From Winogradskyella vincentii (GTDB lineage Bacteria > Bacteroidota > Bacteroidia > Flavobacteriales > Flavobacteriaceae): a stretch of 64,000 nt of DNA. Both the position numbers and the translations under genes were made by a program. Below the pieces are notes generated by a model. The model was not told where the DNA came from and searched no databases. It saw only the letters and a list, made by a program, of their open reading frames with translations. The DNA is taken from contig NZ_JAIUJS010000007.1 in assembly GCF_020166345.1 (NCBI RefSeq), positions 1 through 64,000 of the forward strand, written 5' to 3'. Shown here piece after piece: positions 48,691 to 55,076 of this stretch (its first letter is position 1; each line of letters opens with the position of its first letter).

Positions 48691-49524
48691 GTGAGGAATA
48701 TTAAACAACTTTTTCATTTCTATATCAATAGTAGTATTCATGTAGCATTAGCGGCATATGCATTAACATGGGTTACTCTTTTAGAATATGATCTGGAATA
48801 TGATAAAAACAGCCTTTATTTCGTCTTTTTTGCAACCATTACAGGATACAATTTTGTTAAGTATTTTGGTGTTGCAAAATTTCATCATCGAAGATTGGCA
48901 AATTGGTTAAAAGCCATACAGTTGTTTTCATTTATTGCGTTTATAGCATTGGCATATTATGCCTTTCAACTTTTGGTGAATTCTAAAGTTTTGATTCTAC
49001 TGTTAGGGGTTATAACATTTTTGTATGCCATTCCCTTGTTACCAAAGAAATATTTTATTGATGATCAAAGCAACCTTCGACAGATTAGTGGGCTTAAGGT
49101 TTATGTAATCGCAATTGTATGGTCTTTATCAACGGTTGTTTTACCACTAATTCAAAATGAAATAGAAATTGGTGCAGATGTTGTTATTACAAGTCTTCAG
49201 AGGTTTTGCTATATAATTGTATTAATGCTGCCATTTGAAATTAGAGATTTAAACTATGATAGTTTAAAACTTGGGACAATTCCGCAACGAATTGGAGTTA
49301 AACGAACAAAAATTATTGGAATATTTCTTTTAATGCTTTTCTTTTTCTTGGAATATTTTAAAAATGAAATTGATTCTAAAGCGCTAATTATTTTACTGAC
49401 AATAACATTTGTTACAGCTCTGTTTTTAGTTTTTTCCAATAAAAATCAATCGAAGTATTATAGTGCTTTCTGGGTAGAAAGTTTGCCTGTTTTTTGGCTG
49501 GTTTTATTTTTGATGCTTAGCTAG
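48691..49524 (+). CDS. Degenerate UbiA-like membrane protein
   Basis: Integral membrane protein of 277 residues with about eight hydrophobic segments. It resembles UbiA prenyltransferases: LYAIPLLPKK near 111-120, then RQISGLKVYVIAIVWS near 130-145, and a second Asp motif FEIRDLNYD (Asp186-x3-Asp190) followed by GTIPQRIG at 195-202, like the RD-xx-D-xxx-GT-xx-xx-G of the family. The first Asp-rich motif expected near residues 53-65 is absent (NFVKYFGVAKFHH instead). Prenyltransferase activity is therefore doubtful. The start is GTG at 48691, only four bases after a perfect TATTTTTG (48679-48686), so the mRNA may be leaderless or start further in. Its 3' end overlaps the convergent anti-sigma-like gene by 21 bases. 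Confidence 0.7.
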   Translation: MRNIKQLFHFYINSSIHVALAAYALTWVTLLEYDLEYDKNSLYFVFFATITGYNFVKYFGVAKFHHRRLANWLKAIQLFSFIAFIALAYYAFQLLVNSKVLILLLGVITFLYAIPLLPKKYFIDDQSNLRQISGLKVYVIAIVWSLSTVVLPLIQNEIEIGADVVITSLQRFCYIIVLMLPFEIRDLNYDSLKLGTIPQRIGVKRTKIIGIFLLMLFFFLEYFKNEIDSKALIILLTITFVTALFLVFSNKNQSKYYSAFWVESLPVFWLVLFLMLS

Positions 49525-49758
49525 TTCTTTTTCAAATGCTACTTTAATCTGATCTTTTGCCGAGTGGTCTAAGTATTCCATTTTAGAGGATTTAACCAAT
49601 TTAGTTAACTTGGAGTTCCTTGCTGTGTATTTACGGCATGCTCTACAGTAAATTAAATGTAAATTCAGTTTAACTTTTTCCCAAAAGCTAGCTTCCTTGT
49701 ATTGTGTTTTATCACAAACATGATTTGCCTCCTCACAACTTAATTTAAACTTACTCAT
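49504..49758 (-). CDS. Small ZAS-type anti-sigma-like protein
   Basis: Small cytoplasmic protein of 84 residues. It has the zinc-binding anti-sigma pattern His34-x3-Cys38-x2-Cys41 (HLIYCRAC), preceded by Cys8 and His13/Cys15 as possible extra ligands. It has no membrane segment and is basic after residue 40. It starts three bases after the stop of a sigma factor gene, the usual place for a cognate anti-sigma factor. Pairing with that sigma factor is inferred from position and motif. Redox or metal sensing through the cysteines is possible. Confidence 0.75.
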   Translation of the reverse strand: MSKFKLSCEEANHVCDKTQYKEASFWEKVKLNLHLIYCRACRKYTARNSKLTKLVKSSKMEYLDHSAKDQIKVAFEKELAKHQK

Positions 49759-49761
49759 AAT

Positions 49762-50316
49762 TTAAAACCAGTTTTTTTCCATGCAATCAGCCAAAGCAGT
49801 ACGTGCTCTATGGATGATTACCCAGAGGTTAGACGCAGTAATTCCTAATTCATTACAAATAGTTTCTGTGTCATAACCTAATATTGTTTTCATTTTAAAA
49901 ACTTCTGCTTGTTTTTGTGGTAATTTGTCTAAACAGTCATATATAGCATTACCTAACTCAGCGTTTTCCAATTTATCTTCTGCGGTCTTATCAAAAGGAT
50001 CTGCTATTCTTTCTTCCAGCCAATCACCTTCGGCATCAGAATCATTGCTGTAACTCATTCTAACTTCAGCCTTGCCTTTTTTCGAGTTTATTTTACGGTA
50101 GTGATCAATAATTTTTCGTTTGAGTATTGAAACTAACCAGGTCCTTTCACTAGCTTCACCTTTAAAGTTTGCCATGGATTTTAAACCGGCCAAAAACGTT
50201 TCAGATACTAAATCTTGCGCAATTATCCGATCACTTACTCTTGTAACCGTGTAATTAAAAAGATAATCTGAATATTGTGAAATCCAGTTGTTGGGATCTA
50301 TTTGATGATTAGGCAT
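49762..50316 (-). CDS. ECF-type RNA polymerase sigma factor
   Basis: Sigma-70 family factor of 184 residues with only regions 2 and 4, the ECF layout. Region 2 is seen as SDYLFNYTVTRVSDRIIAQDLVSETFLAGL and TWLVSILKRKIIDHYRK. An acidic linker follows (DSDAEGDWLEERIADPFDKTAED). Region 4 is LDKLPQKQAEVFKMK then ETICNELGITASNLWVIIHRAR, the promoter-recognising helix-turn-helix. The anti-sigma-like gene follows after three bases. A TATTTTTG -7 element on the same strand (50345-50338) would put the transcription start about 15 bases before the ATG. The regulon cannot be read here. Confidence 0.93.
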   Translation of the reverse strand: MPNHQIDPNNWISQYSDYLFNYTVTRVSDRIIAQDLVSETFLAGLKSMANFKGEASERTWLVSILKRKIIDHYRKINSKKGKAEVRMSYSNDSDAEGDWLEERIADPFDKTAEDKLENAELGNAIYDCLDKLPQKQAEVFKMKTILGYDTETICNELGITASNLWVIIHRARTALADCMEKNWF

Positions 50317-50377: not shown

Positions 50378-50426
50378 AAACAGATTGAATGAAGTCTTTT
50401 TAAGAATATCCTAATTCAATCTGTTT
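50378..50426 (-). terminator. Terminator of the three-gene membrane-protein operon
   Basis: A 13-base perfect inverted repeat, AAACAGATTGAAT (50378-50390) and ATTCAATCTGTTT (50414-50426), with a 23-base loop that can itself pair weakly. On the minus strand it is followed by T-rich sequence, about 20 bases after the last membrane-protein gene. It isolates that operon from the sigma factor gene. Confidence 0.78.
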
Positions 50427-50446: not shown

Positions 50447-50839
50447 TTAAACTATGAAGTTTTTAGTTTTTATAGTCATTCTAGATTTACTTCTACCTCT
50501 AAAAAACAGGTATAAGTTTAGAAATAACATAACACCAAGGTATATTGTATAGCCACCAATTTTCTTGCTCAATATTTCCATTAGAGTTTGGTTGCTCATA
50601 TCATAGTTACTGCTGTAGCCATAAATTTTCATAATATATAGAGCAAAGCCAATATTGATGAGATAAAATCCAATTTCAAATAATTTATTGGTTGCCAATG
50701 CAATATCTTCTTTTCCTCTAAATATATCTATCATAAAATGCTTACCGTTTTTAAAAAGCATTTTGGAAATGTAGATTGTAAGAACAATGACAATAGGTAA
50801 ATAGATAGCATAACCGATTACAATTTTTGAATTTTCCAT
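50447..50839 (-). CDS. Small membrane protein, paralogue of the preceding gene
   Basis: Unrecognised membrane protein of 130 residues with three or four hydrophobic segments (near 6-27, 52-72 and 93-114) and a basic C-terminal tail (RGRSKSRMTIKTKNF). It is clearly related to the 117-residue protein encoded just upstream: both have IYLPI near the start, then F-KNG-xx-F, then NIGxA in the second segment. It is last in a three-gene operon with two-base gaps, downstream of a GbsR/MarR-type regulator, and is followed by a terminator. No function can be given. A role in envelope or stress response is a guess from the regulator. Confidence 0.75.
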   Translation of the reverse strand: MENSKIVIGYAIYLPIVIVLTIYISKMLFKNGKHFMIDIFRGKEDIALATNKLFEIGFYLINIGFALYIMKIYGYSSNYDMSNQTLMEILSKKIGGYTIYLGVMLFLNLYLFFRGRSKSRMTIKTKNFIV

Positions 50840-50841
50840 AA

Positions 50842-51195
50842 TTAATGATTTAAAAGTTTAGAATTATTTAATTGTCTTAGCCAAAATATGTTGTTGTAAT
50901 GCATAATAGCTAGGAGCAAGATAATTTTGCCAATGGTTTTTGAGAGTGAATTGATCATCTCTATTGCTGAGGTCAAATTTTCCCAATATGAAATTGTTAT
51001 GATGGCGTAACCTATGTTGGTTAAATAATACCCAATAAGCAAGAGGTTATTTATGCTTTTAACCAGAGCTGCATTATTATGAAAAAGGTTTAACAGAAAG
51101 ACTTCCCCATTTTTATAAAAAAGCCAACCAATTTTTACCATAATAAATGAGATTATTGGCAAGTAGATGTAATATGTTATAATATTATAATTCAT
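50842..51195 (-). CDS. Small membrane protein, first of a paralogous pair
   Basis: Unrecognised membrane protein of 117 residues with three hydrophobic segments near 8-27, 50-70 and 88-105. Shared with the next protein are YYIYLPI, FYKNGEVFLLNLF and LIGYYLTNIGYAI, so the two genes arose by tandem duplication and diverged widely. It sits two bases after the 141-residue membrane protein gene and two before its paralogue, which implies one polycistronic mRNA and perhaps a joint complex. The start is ATG with no visible Shine-Dalgarno, normal for this phylum. Confidence 0.75.
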   Translation of the reverse strand: MNYNIITYYIYLPIISFIMVKIGWLFYKNGEVFLLNLFHNNAALVKSINNLLLIGYYLTNIGYAIITISYWENLTSAIEMINSLSKTIGKIILLLAIMHYNNIFWLRQLNNSKLLNH

Positions 51196-51197
51196 AA

Positions 51198-51623
51198 TTA
51201 AATTAAGTTAGATATAGCCAAGTAAGTATATATTGTTGCGAAAAGTGTAAATAAGAAGTTCATGAAATAACTACCTATTTTGAAAATTAATTTTTGTGGA
51301 ATCTGATACATTGGATAGTAGGCAATTTGGGTTATTACTTTACCAACCCAATAGGCAGCAATAAGTGTAGTTAGAGCAAAGGCCAATCTAGTTCCATTTT
51401 TTAAATCATTGGGCAGTAAAATTGCTATTAAACCAAAAGAAAAGTTTAGACCTTGTATGTATCTTCCATATGTTTTGGCAATTTCTTGGTTAAGGGGTTT
51501 TAGCAGTTTTACATCATTGTACCAATCAAAAACGTTATGTCTTATATATGGATAAATAAGTGCGGTAAAGATTTGACCAACACCGCCTAATACGATCAAC
51601 CAATTTGGAATTTGAAATTTCAT
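51198..51623 (-). CDS. Four-segment membrane protein, first gene of the regulated operon
   Basis: Unrecognised membrane protein of 141 residues with four hydrophobic segments (near 8-24, 58-70, 80-98 and 116-138), separate from the paralogous pair that follows. It starts 22 bases after an operator-like inverted repeat identical in half-sites to that before the regulator gene. It is the first of three genes with two-base gaps. I do not recognise a family with confidence. The genes are compact, share one strand and have normal AT-rich composition, so they are likely real. Confidence 0.78.
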   Translation of the reverse strand: MKFQIPNWLIVLGGVGQIFTALIYPYIRHNVFDWYNDVKLLKPLNQEIAKTYGRYIQGLNFSFGLIAILLPNDLKNGTRLAFALTTLIAAYWVGKVITQIAYYPMYQIPQKLIFKIGSYFMNFLFTLFATIYTYLAISNLI

Positions 51624-51644: not shown

Positions 51645-51670
51645 AAACTTTCAGAAATAATTGAAAGTTG
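51645..51670 (-). promoter_or_regulatory. Operator O2 before the membrane-protein operon
   Basis: Inverted repeat AACTTTCA (51646-51653), eight bases, TGAAAGTT (51662-51669). Half-sites and spacing are the same as in the palindrome before the regulator gene. It ends 22 bases before the ATG of the first membrane-protein gene. Read on the minus strand, the tract TGAAAGTTTAAAAA leads into a weak -7 match (TAACACTT) at the same distance as at the regulator's own promoter, so a bound regulator would cover the promoter. Confidence 0.7.
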
Positions 51671-51690
51671 TAATTAAAAAAAATATGAAC

Positions 51691-52194
51691 CTATTTTAGC
51701 ATTTTTAAAACTGATTTTGTTACCCAATTTTGATTTTGGTTTACAAGTTTGGTCATAAGGTTATCTAAGTCTTCAGTGATTACGTGTAAGGCTTTGGTCT
51801 GTTTAATAAGTTCTTTTGTTTTTTCGCTTCCATCATTCTTGATAGAAGAGACTTCATTTAATACTTTTATCACAGGTCTTATTTCTCGTCTACTGCGTTC
51901 TTTGGCAATTACCCTTGCTAATTCTTGTACGTCCTTCTCAGTTGTAAAATACTCTCTGCGTTCTCCAGTTTTTAATACTTTGGTTACAATTCCCCAATCC
52001 ATAAGTTGACGTAAATTCATACTAGTATTACCACGAGAGATCTTGAGTTCTTCCATAATGTCTTCCATAGAAAGAGGCGTAGTAGAAATAAAAAGAAGTG
52101 CTTGAATTTGAGCCATAGCTTTATTTATGCCCCAAAGTGTGCCTAAACTTCCCCAAGTATTTATAAACTTTTCTTTTGCTTCTTCGTAACTCAT
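51691..52194 (-). CDS. GbsR/MarR family transcriptional regulator
   Basis: DNA-binding regulator of 167 residues from ATG 52194 (an in-frame TTG 15 bases earlier lies in the -7 element and is less likely). The winged helix-turn-helix is at about 40-90: LSMEDIMEELKISRGNTSMN, then LRQLMDWGIVTKV and the wing GERREYFTTE. A helical C-terminal dimer and sensor region follows. This pattern belongs to GbsR-like members of the MarR superfamily, known in Bacillus to repress glycine-betaine synthesis genes when choline is absent. The ligand here is unknown. Two matching palindromes, over its own promoter and before the next operon, indicate autoregulation and control of the three membrane-protein genes. 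Confidence 0.9.
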   Translation of the reverse strand: MSYEEAKEKFINTWGSLGTLWGINKAMAQIQALLFISTTPLSMEDIMEELKISRGNTSMNLRQLMDWGIVTKVLKTGERREYFTTEKDVQELARVIAKERSRREIRPVIKVLNEVSSIKNDGSEKTKELIKQTKALHVITEDLDNLMTKLVNQNQNWVTKSVLKMLK

Positions 52195-52198
52195 AGTA

Positions 52199-52227
52199 CA
52201 AAGATACAATTATTTTTAAACTTTCAA
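52199..52227 (-). promoter_or_regulatory. Promoter of the GbsR/MarR regulator gene
   Basis: On the minus strand TTG (52227-52225) and TATCTTTG (52206-52199) are spaced by 18 bases. The -33 part lies inside the palindrome at 52218-52243. The predicted start is within a few bases of the ATG at 52194, so the mRNA may be nearly leaderless. Confidence 0.7.
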
Positions 52228-52243
52228 TAAGTATTGAAAGTTT
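52218..52243. promoter_or_regulatory. Operator O1, 26-base perfect palindrome at the regulator promoter
   Basis: AAACTTTCAATA (52218-52229), two bases, TATTGAAAGTTT (52232-52243): perfect 12-base arms. It contains AACTTTCA-N8-TGAAAGTT, the same architecture as O2. It overlaps the -33 element of the regulator gene and reaches the stop codon of the upstream peptidase-like gene. Confidence 0.85.
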
Positions 52244-53018
52244 ATTTTATTTCAAAATGAATATGATCATCATGTCGAACAGACTGGCATCCATGAAAGC
52301 GAATTTCATTATAATCTTGAAGTTTGAGTTCTTTCTTTAAATAAGGTTCTATAAAGATTTTGGAGTTTTTTGCACGATAGAGCAAACCCTGTATAAGTGT
52401 TTTTGTATTTTCCTTATCCAAAGTGAGTTCTTTATTTGAACCAAAGGTTAGGTACTTTGTTATGTCATATTGCCAAAATCCTATGCTCTTACAATAATTT
52501 AATGTGGGATTTGAATCAGATGTGTATGCACCATAACCGCTAGTTGACGGTTTTTTGTTTGTTTTTTTGCCGTTTTCTAGATACATAAATGCAATATCTA
52601 TTTTATTACCATCATCATGACTAATATGTGGCAACAAAGGGAAGCCATCAATAAAAGGAAAATTTGCATCGAGGTATGTCACTCTTATTCCAAGATGTGC
52701 CAAGTCAATTGATGATTGTAACAACAAGGAATTAAGTTCCTTACTCACATAATTTCTAAACAGTAATGGGTAAATTAAATTATGTGGTTTCAATGTATTG
52801 CTTGTTACTGGTAGTTTAGTTCTACCAAATAATGGTGCAGTAATTGGAATTACAAACAGATTAAAGGCTAGATAAAGAATGGGGAAAACATATCTTTTTT
52901 TCTTTTTCCATTTATAGCAAATTATAAGGCAGAGCAACCACATTAGTCCTCCAATTTGAGTAAGAATAGTTAAGACAATTACTATAAAGACATGTAGAGC
53001 TATTTTAAAAATCACCAT
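52242..53018 (-). CDS. Membrane-anchored LAS-type zinc peptidase-like protein
   Basis: Protein of 258 residues with two N-terminal hydrophobic segments (about 4-33 and 44-63) and a soluble domain. The soluble part has the zinc-site pattern of LAS peptidases (MepA, VanY/VanX and lysostaphin relatives): His134-x6-Asp141 in SHDDGNKIDIAF and His252-x-His254 in RHDDHIHFEIK, with His249 as a possible general base. Such enzymes usually cut peptidoglycan peptides. I see no closer family match, so the substrate is an inference. It lies upstream of the GbsR/MarR-type gene on the same strand; its stop touches operator O1. Confidence 0.72.
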   Translation of the reverse strand: MVIFKIALHVFIVIVLTILTQIGGLMWLLCLIICYKWKKKKRYVFPILYLAFNLFVIPITAPLFGRTKLPVTSNTLKPHNLIYPLLFRNYVSKELNSLLLQSSIDLAHLGIRVTYLDANFPFIDGFPLLPHISHDDGNKIDIAFMYLENGKKTNKKPSTSGYGAYTSDSNPTLNYCKSIGFWQYDITKYLTFGSNKELTLDKENTKTLIQGLLYRAKNSKIFIEPYLKKELKLQDYNEIRFHGCQSVRHDDHIHFEIK

Positions 53019-53045: not shown

Positions 53046-55076
53046 TTATTTTATCAACCCAGCTCGTCGCAACAATGCTTCTGGTTTGGGTTCTTGCCCT
53101 CTGAATTTTTTGTATAAAGTCATTGGGTTTTCGGTGCCACCTTGAGACAAGACATAAGTTTTAAACTTATTAGCAACTGTTTTATTAAATATACCTTCTT
53201 CCTTAAAATACTCAAAAGCATCTGCATCTAATACTTCGGCCCATTTATAACTATAATAACCTGATGAGTATCCGCCTTGGAATATATGTGCAAATGCAGT
53301 ACTCATACAGTTCTCTTTAACATCTGGATAAAGTTGTGTTTCGCCAAATGCCTTGAGTTCATAAGTTTTTACATCCATTATGTCAGATGGGTCAACACCA
53401 TGCCATGCCATATCTAGCATACCAAAACTTAACTGTCTTAGGGTTTGTATTCCTTCATTAAAGGTTGCTGATTTTTTAATCTTTTCTATTAATTCCATCG
53501 GAATTACTTCATCAGTTTTATAATGTTTGGCAAATAGCTTCAACGTTTCTTCTTCATAACACCAATTCTCTAAAATCTGACTTGGTAGCTCCACAAAATC
53601 CCAATATACACTTGTGCCAGAAAGGCTTGGGTAGGTTGTATTGGCCAACATGCCATGTAGTGCGTGGCCAAACTCATGAAATAGTGTGGTAACCTCGTTA
53701 AAAGTTAATAATGAAGGTTTACTCTTTGTTGGCTTTGTAAAATTGCAAACAATTGACACATGTGGTCTTTCATTAGTGCCATTTTTTATCATCTGCGGTT
53801 TAAATGATGTCATCCATGCACCATTTCGTTTTCCTGCTCTAGGAAAAAAGTCCGCGTAGAAAATAGATACTAATTCTCCATCTGCATCTACAACCTTATA
53901 GGTCATTACATCTTCATGATACTTGTCTATAGTATCTATTTCATTAAACTCTAATCCGAATAATTTGTTGGCCACAGTAAATGCACCTTCAATGACATTT
54001 TCTAGTTTAAAATAAGGTTTCAATTTTTCATCATCTAAGTCGAACAACTTCTGTTTCAATTTTTCGGAATAGTAAGCAGAATCCCATTTTTGTAACTGAT
54101 CAATATCATCTAATTCCTTAGCAAAATCTTGGAGTTTTTTAAATTCTTTTATGGCTGCAGGTTTGGCTTTTCCTAATAGGTCTTCTAGAAAATGATTTAC
54201 TTTAATAGGAGATTCGGCCATACGTTCTTCGAGAACAAAATGTGCATGGGTCTTATAACCTAATAATTGAGCCCGTTCATATCTGAGATTGGATATTTTT
54301 AAAACAATATCCTTGTTGTCTAATTCATCATTTTTAAAACCTTTACTCCCAAAAGCTTTAGATAAATTTTTTCTTAGACTTCTGCTTTTAGCGTAAGTCA
54401 TAAATGGAATATAACTTGGGTAATCTAAAGTTATTAGCCAACCTTTTTTACCTTTACTTTCTGCCAACTGCTGCGCTGCTTCTTTGGCACCTTCTGGTAA
54501 TCCATCTAAATCGTCTTTTTGAGTTAAGTGCATTTCAAACTTATTGGTTTCGGCTAATATGTGCTCACCAAACTTTAGTTTAAGTTGACTTAATTCTTTA
54601 TCAATGGCTCTCAGTCTTTCTTTTTTATCTTCAAGTAAATTAGCACCGTTTCTAGCAAAACTTTTATATTTTTTATCTAGTAACGTTGCTTGTTCTGTAT
54701 TTAATTTTAAATCTGATTTAGAATCGTATACTGATTTAACACGCTTAAATAAATCTTCATTCAGGGTTATGTCATTACTAAATTCTGAAAGTAGTGGTGA
54801 CACTTCTTGAGCAATCTTTTGTATTTCATCATTGGTTTCGGCAGAATTAAGATTAAAGAAAATACTAGATATTCTGTCTAACTCTTCACCTGAATAGTCG
54901 AGTGCCTCAATGGTATTTTGAAATGTTGGCTTTTCTTTGTTATTAACAATAGTATCAATCTCTAATTTAGCTTTTTTAATTGCTGTCTTAAAAGCGGATA
55001 AAAATTCTTCGGTTTTTAGTTTTGAAAATGGAGCTGTATTGTACTGTGTATCAAAGGGTTTATTGAGAATTGTCAT
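53046..55076 (-). CDS. M3 family metallopeptidase (oligopeptidase A/Dcp type)
   Basis: Zinc oligopeptidase of 676 residues, matching the M3 family (oligopeptidase A, peptidyl-dipeptidase Dcp). The zinc motif LFHEFGHALHG gives HExxH, followed about 25 residues later by the third-ligand Glu region (WDFVELPSQILENW). The C-terminal block FQGGYSSGYYSYKWAEVLDADAF is strongly typical. There is no signal peptide, so it most likely degrades short peptides in the cytoplasm. It starts 183 bases downstream of purE on the same strand, with a candidate plus-strand RNA in between. Confidence 0.95.
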   Translation of the reverse strand: MTILNKPFDTQYNTAPFSKLKTEEFLSAFKTAIKKAKLEIDTIVNNKEKPTFQNTIEALDYSGEELDRISSIFFNLNSAETNDEIQKIAQEVSPLLSEFSNDITLNEDLFKRVKSVYDSKSDLKLNTEQATLLDKKYKSFARNGANLLEDKKERLRAIDKELSQLKLKFGEHILAETNKFEMHLTQKDDLDGLPEGAKEAAQQLAESKGKKGWLITLDYPSYIPFMTYAKSRSLRKNLSKAFGSKGFKNDELDNKDIVLKISNLRYERAQLLGYKTHAHFVLEERMAESPIKVNHFLEDLLGKAKPAAIKEFKKLQDFAKELDDIDQLQKWDSAYYSEKLKQKLFDLDDEKLKPYFKLENVIEGAFTVANKLFGLEFNEIDTIDKYHEDVMTYKVVDADGELVSIFYADFFPRAGKRNGAWMTSFKPQMIKNGTNERPHVSIVCNFTKPTKSKPSLLTFNEVTTLFHEFGHALHGMLANTTYPSLSGTSVYWDFVELPSQILENWCYEEETLKLFAKHYKTDEVIPMELIEKIKKSATFNEGIQTLRQLSFGMLDMAWHGVDPSDIMDVKTYELKAFGETQLYPDVKENCMSTAFAHIFQGGYSSGYYSYKWAEVLDADAFEYFKEEGIFNKTVANKFKTYVLSQGGTENPMTLYKKFRGQEPKPEALLRRAGLIK

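Follow-up and report, generated by a model that had tools for sequence, protein, structure and literature searches.

In Bacillus subtilis, GbsR represses by a roadblock and regulates its own gene, and OpcR occludes the -35 region, as the accessible part of PMC7396694 describes. The reading heads of MJ223 from Methanocaldococcus jannaschii (1ku9) have been reported not to fit standard B-DNA unless moved, as told in the available portion of PMC6207618, and the same 2018 family survey, as far as its accessible text goes, found GbsR-type genes of Bacteroidetes without a consistent neighbourhood. No description of the operator or locus considered here was found in the open-licence literature on flavobacterial GbsR proteins or on the gene modules described below. 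Here we consider a window of 64,000 nucleotides of Winogradskyella vincentii (contig NZ_JAIUJS010000007.1, positions 1 to 64,000), in which a regulator gene of this kind lies between two copies of an inverted repeat, O1 and O2 (Table 1). Comparison of the sequence with its relatives makes it probable that this is a dedicated local MarR-type regulator, with operators O1 and O2 bracketing its gene, which would control both itself and an exchangeable operon.

Table 1. Features of the locus, in positions of the window
Feature	Position	Strand	Remark
PEPT	53046..55076	-	676-aa peptidase-like gene, other slot edge
UP	52242..53018	-	258-aa gene abutting O1, between PEPT and O1
Operator O1 (predicted)	52219..52242	.	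upstream of regulator; covers TTG at -33 of predicted start
-7 box TATCTTTG of P1	52199..52206	-	exact TAnnTTTG; G 4 nt before regulator ATG
Regulator	51691..52194	-	167 aa, GbsR/MJ223-like branch of MarR superfamily
A/T element	51673..51678	-	consensus TTTAA at -9 to -5 before O2; fixed distance in relatives
Operator O2 (predicted)	51646..51669	.	between regulator stop codon and first operon gene
M1	51198..51623	-	141-aa membrane protein; modelled four-helix bundle, mean pLDDT 83.8
M2	50842..51195	-	117-aa membrane protein, distant M3 relative
M3	50447..50839	-	130-aa membrane protein; weaker model (mean pLDDT 76.8) showing three long helices
Inverted repeat ACAGATTGAAT...ATTCAATCTGT, then TTTATTT	50380..50424	-	possible terminator after M3, by eye
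ECF-type sigma factor gene	49762..50316	-	slot edge outside cassette; present in 13/13 cassette-free genomes

The regulator passed the Pfam MarR_2 model for the MarR-type winged helix-turn-helix (34.6 bits, cutoff 27) as well as the ArsR-type HTH_5 model (30.6, cutoff 22). By sequence its closest solved structure is MJ223 (E 8.2e-20, residues 3-133), and the CudC model matches it at E 1.8e-13, indicating kinship to MJ223 and to GbsR/CudC-type proteins, with a score of 50.7 bits that did not reach the cutoff of 218 of the CudC equivalog NF047500. Across 25 relatives the first Met, SRGN (53-56), N60 and R62 do not vary, and SRGN, N60 and R62 are the putative DNA-reading residues. A defence system was rejected: in a PADLOC run on 10 proteins the regulator gave nothing beyond weak HTH matches, and the one other match, to a methyltransferase (mad2), was generic.

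Both inverted repeats read AACTTTCA-N8-TGAAAGTT with 0 mismatches, in agreement with the preliminary description of this DNA, which had also correctly placed 22 bases between the end of O2 and the ATG of M1 (51623), and a TTG inside O1 (52225-52227) lies at -33 from the A of the regulator ATG. The description of O1 as a perfect 26-base palindrome has to be amended, because 52218-52243 consists of two perfect 12-base arms around a central AG (52230-52231) that is not self-complementary; the arms of O2 are perfect over 8 bases each. In its exact form the motif occurs in the 3,294,130-base genome (64 contigs) solely as O1 and O2, with five more places matching at 2 mismatches. When up to 2 mismatches were allowed genome-wide, 7 places per strand were found against 10 for the reversed pattern, and at up to 3 mismatches the window held 3 matches against 1.30 expected, a count reached by 13 of 100 shuffles. 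With mismatches allowed the motif is thus no commoner than the controls, and only the exact form and its conservation stand out.

Beside orthologues of the regulator, the core TTTCA-N8-TGAAA was found upstream in 134, downstream in 128 and on both sides in 127 of 136 distinct loci, down to 44% protein identity, counts which do not represent independent events since the loci are related. This set includes the window, holds identical sequences once and sets 3 edge loci aside; the core is missing from its expected place at O2 in 8 loci and at O1 in 2. As controls, 250,284 bp further downstream at the same loci contained 9 cores, and the core arose in about 0.1% of letter-shuffled flanks. All 28 other same-genus orthologue loci (L006-L033; 80-85% identity) carry both sites with at most 1 mismatch each. 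In a hand-made list of 98 loci, one per genome, no more than 2 mismatches were counted at O1 in 93 loci and at O2 in 90, and TTTCA and TGAAA are invariant in the 97 (O1) and 95 (O2) rows used for the column counts. Another 80 loci from named records, which largely repeat the same genomes and were kept out of the 136 and scored apart, show at most 2 mismatches at O1 in 80 and at O2 in 79. A class-wide draw matched the regulator in 99 of 295 genomes, and the 29 loci new to the set (44-57% identity; four in the family of the window and one in its order) have the core upstream in 27 and downstream in 23, the corresponding figures for the 24 loci outside that family and order being 22 and 18. The scan of Flavobacteriaceae genomes that had been proposed for this motif thus finds both sites beside regulator orthologues throughout the family and beyond it, in support of the proposal that the regulator would bind both. 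Across relatives, the spacer letters and the neighbourhood of O2 differ from those of O1. One 44% orthologue (L101, genome G049) keeps an upstream TTTCA-N8-TGAAA with a GC-richer spacer in otherwise different DNA, and O2 is absent there.

The motif also follows the regulator from genome to genome. Regulator matches at E 1e-20 or better are present in 59 of 299 family genomes, and comparison of the two lists places the exact motif in 48 of these 59 and in 0 of the 240 genomes without the regulator, no listed site lying more than about 110 bp from the regulator gene; the reversed motif gave no match in the 299 genomes. Within the genus, 53 of 68 genomes contain the exact motif in at most 2 copies each (reversed control 0). 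A search for a wider regulon found no third exact copy in any genome of the genus (68) or of the family (299). The regulator is present in all 18 family genomes that have M3; M1 is more loosely associated, 4 of 20 M1-positive family genomes lacking the regulator. At two loci (L140, genome G175; L138, genome G129) M1 occupies the slot without a regulator, which might represent remnants or a different mode of control. In Gelidibacter japonicus the regulator occurs at two loci, each on its own contig (L249, L252), possibly two cassettes in one genome.

After O1, 94 of 97 loci have a box that departs from TAnnTTTG at no more than 1 position (90 fit it exactly), and its G stands exactly 4 nt 5' of the ATG in 82 of the 94 box-bearing loci; the distance from O1 to the ATG is 24-25 bp in 82 of 98. 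Together with the TTG at -33 that O1 overlaps, this places the operator within the regulator's own predicted promoter, P1. In Flavobacterium psychrophilum the -7 box spans -12 to -5 and leaderless mRNAs make up 5.5%, according to the accessible part of PMC9723704. Given that position of the box and the 4-nt gap, transcription should start on the A of the ATG, and the P1 transcript probably begins at 52194, giving a leaderless mRNA. The -33 element is less certain than the -7 box, since F. johnsoniae showed no -33 motif, as stated in the available text of PMC7366714.

The same promoter layout had been proposed for O2, and only part of it stands. On the minus strand TGAAAGTTTAAAAA does follow both sites, but the -7-like site is found at O1 and not at O2, where the window has TAACACTT at that distance, with 3 of the 6 specified letters of TAnnTTTG wrong. 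Among relatives the box occurs at O2 in 6 and is absent in 90 of 96 loci, and O2 lies too near the start codon, at a median of 16 bp from the operon ATG and less than 20 bp in 83 of the 91 loci (out of 96) with an assigned start; equal boxes at the two sites were thus rejected. An ECF-type promoter inside O2 was discarded for its spacing, judged by eye. At three loci (L014, L019 and L053) the operon start was clearly assigned to a later ATG, and since the skipped start of L014 and L019 resembles an sm111-like ORF, the payload recorded as desaturase-MT may hide a small gene. The TTTAA element before O2 is conserved at 83-95% per alignment column. TAnnTTTG with at most 1 mismatch also starts at -12 to -17 before O2 in many loci, at scattered offsets within a T-tract, where T runs match easily. 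The regulator stop precedes O2 by 13-23 bp in most loci. Between the two, a hairpin of -6 kcal/mol or lower was predicted in 17 of 96 loci, part of which simply have longer spacers; some of these hairpins (e.g. L079, L082, L091 and L092) look like terminators with T runs behind them, and in those loci a promoter of the operon close to O2 is favoured.

Beyond what had been claimed before, the regulator, its operators and the operon form a presence/absence cassette with exchangeable payload between a peptidase and a sigma-factor gene. In all 13 same-genus genomes without the exact motif and without the regulator in the slot, the slot is empty: peptidase and sigma-factor genes are neighbours, and the DNA separating them contains no module-like ORF and none reaching 110 aa. 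Absence of the regulator was established by slot search in all 13 and by genome-wide search in 8, two of which gave only weak distant matches. Among these empty-site genomes is G025, the nearest row to the window by flanking proteins (95%). PEPT, which we take to be an M3 peptidase, marks one edge. The UP gene is itself present or absent, being shown in 29 of 55 loci; it has no Pfam match at E 1 or better, and its C-terminal HDDHIHFE presumably recalls a metallopeptidase motif. The ECF sigma factor (49504-50316 region) resembles TIGR02943 below cutoff and has an anti-sigma-like neighbour, and this pair stays in the flank with or without the cassette. Beside the anti-sigma gene, a converging membrane-protein gene (48691-49524) is conserved in the flank; it is UbiA-like by eye, and no Pfam family was found for it above cutoff.

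The content of the cassette varies widely. Annotation covered 55 loci (the window, 51 of the genus and 3 of other family genera), and 50 cassettes reaching the sigma-factor gene were taken as complete, five without a far edge being excluded; the peptidase gene is seen on 48 of the 50, and the other two stretches do not show it. These 50 contain 21 gene sets, or 16 when sm111, sm92 and the small or odd ORFs without a name are left aside. The commonest are sm111-M1-MT (10), sm111-desaturase-MT (7), DCC-M2-M3-epimerase (4) and desaturase-MT (4), and M1-M2-M3 of the window is unique among them. The earlier proposal of a regulator controlling a three-gene membrane operon could thus be kept as regards the conserved pair of sites, but the operon is one of 21 payloads. 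M1, desaturase, M2 and DUF2071 co-occur only twice. In one locus (L183, genome G076) the regulator is separated from sm111 by two unnamed ORFs of 313 and 221 aa. The modules, named from one representative each, match TIGR01777/DUF1731 epimerase, DUF2071, a CMAS-like methyltransferase, DCC1, fatty-acid desaturase and DoxX_3, with a Polyketide_cyc2 match below cutoff; sm111 and sm92 have no family match. Structure searches of the PDB with M1 (Foldseek, VIA-align) and with M3 (Foldseek) recovered common helix bundles only, none at E <0.001. Other families of the class also have similar genes following the regulator, some at about 21-35% identity and uncertain. These module names suggest that the payloads may have a membrane or lipid role.

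Of 26 pairs whose regulators share at least 97% identity, 19 carry different payloads (18 after collapse), and two genomes (G033 and G067) with identical regulator proteins have different payloads. Parsimony on the regulator tree, whose resolution is poor (stars on 3 of its 46 inner branches), requires at least 32 payload changes, the minimum for 21 states being 20. The flanking-protein tree, limited to the 33 of 68 rows whose stretch includes both flanking genes, gave 19 changes of payload, with the empty slot treated as a state of its own, and 9 changes between presence and absence. Six pairs were hand-picked for near-identical regulators and different payloads. In five of them the shared DNA runs out somewhere from the regulator stop to about 52 bp beyond O2, the sixth having the first payload gene in common; in three of the six it begins at most about 5 bp from O1. 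One pair (L185/L188) shares 93% over just O1-regulator-O2. As genes abut the operators, these edges may reflect only gene boundaries.

Given these observations, it is reasonable to suggest that a regulator dimer would bind two operators with the core TTTCA-N8-TGAAA on either side of its own gene. At O1 it would cover the -33 region of a promoter whose mRNA is probably leaderless, self-repression being the most likely outcome. At O2 it would control the operon, most likely as an obstacle to RNA polymerase at the operon start or immediately behind it, through occlusion or roadblock, modes for which OpcR and GbsR of B. subtilis are precedents, and a signal, perhaps membrane- or lipid-related, might release it. 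O1, regulator and O2 would form a control head in the peptidase/sigma-factor slot, with exchangeable genes, here M1-M2-M3, behind it. Alternatively, a single P1 transcript might cover regulator and operon, with O2 inside the unit instead of at a promoter and the regulator bound there pausing or blocking the polymerase or looping with O1, so setting the ratio of regulator to operon mRNA. The lack of a conserved -7 box at O2 and the tight fit of O2 between the regulator stop and the operon ATG would suit such a transcript, but several of the hairpins predicted in 17 of 96 loci are terminator-like and would cut it, and we regard it as possible but rather unlikely.

It seems improbable that the regulator activates the operon from O2 with no repression. 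The constant neighbourhood of O2, with its upstream A/T element and spacer letters unlike those of O1, could be read in this way; nevertheless, with a median of 16 bp between O2 and the ATG, a promoter could hardly be accommodated after an activator site, and the characterised relatives act as repressors as far as the accessible sources describe them. The palindromes might also belong to another DNA-binding protein or to an RNA hairpin that merely sits at this locus, and by eye O2 RNA could indeed fold just before the operon ATG. We consider this very unlikely, since the exact motif lies beside the regulator gene and was found in no family genome lacking it, and since O1 carries the motif yet lies upstream of the predicted transcription start and would be outside the RNA. 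As for chance repeats in AT-rich DNA, the shuffles reaching the window count and the excess of the reversed pattern at 2 mismatches would be in their favour, but conservation beside orthologues contradicts them and their probability appears negligible.

With local control by a dedicated regulator as the preferred reading, our results tentatively raise a broader and somewhat doubtful possibility, namely that the locus is an ancient plug-in control socket of the class, in which a leaderless, self-limiting switch is fixed, the payload is exchanged and the operators mark the boundaries, perhaps also helping exchange as short repeated homologies. The switch would have been kept across families and exchange would be combinatorial, taking place in the genus of the window at one chromosomal slot; if so, the diversity of payloads might result from selection for diverse membrane chemistry, for instance as protection from phages, toxins or stress. 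A payload varying behind a fixed operator pair could explain the inconsistent neighbourhood noted in the 2018 survey. For widespread regulators whose role that survey, in its accessible part, could not infer, the locus offers a concrete candidate operator and target operons, so that a single short DNA site and the naturally occurring series of payloads would suffice to test effector and function. It also adds a compact regulator-operator pair, probably leaderless, to the few switches defined in the phylum.

Among known systems, the Bacteroidetes GbsR-type regulators of the 2018 survey share phylum and branch with the present one, and the available part of PMC6207618 describes no operator or modular payload for them. 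GbsR of B. subtilis, the repressor of gbsAB and opuB, resembles it in belonging to the same branch of the MarR superfamily, in autoregulation and roadblock repression, and in an A/T-rich inverted-repeat operator near the transcription start, as given in the accessible text of PMC7396694. By the same text its half-sites are 4 bp apart, whereas the A/T-rich inverted repeat here has an 8-bp spacer, and no gene-bracketing operator pair is described for it. Its targets are choline/betaine genes, as opposed to the membrane and lipid-type genes here, and no choline, betaine or Opu genes were found among the window neighbours and payload modules, three payload ORFs being unnamed. OpcR of B. subtilis has opuB/opuC as targets and an operator whose sequence and spacer differ from O1 and O2, as far as its available description goes; nevertheless, it blocks the -35 region (PMC7396694, accessible part), much like the action proposed for O1 at -33.
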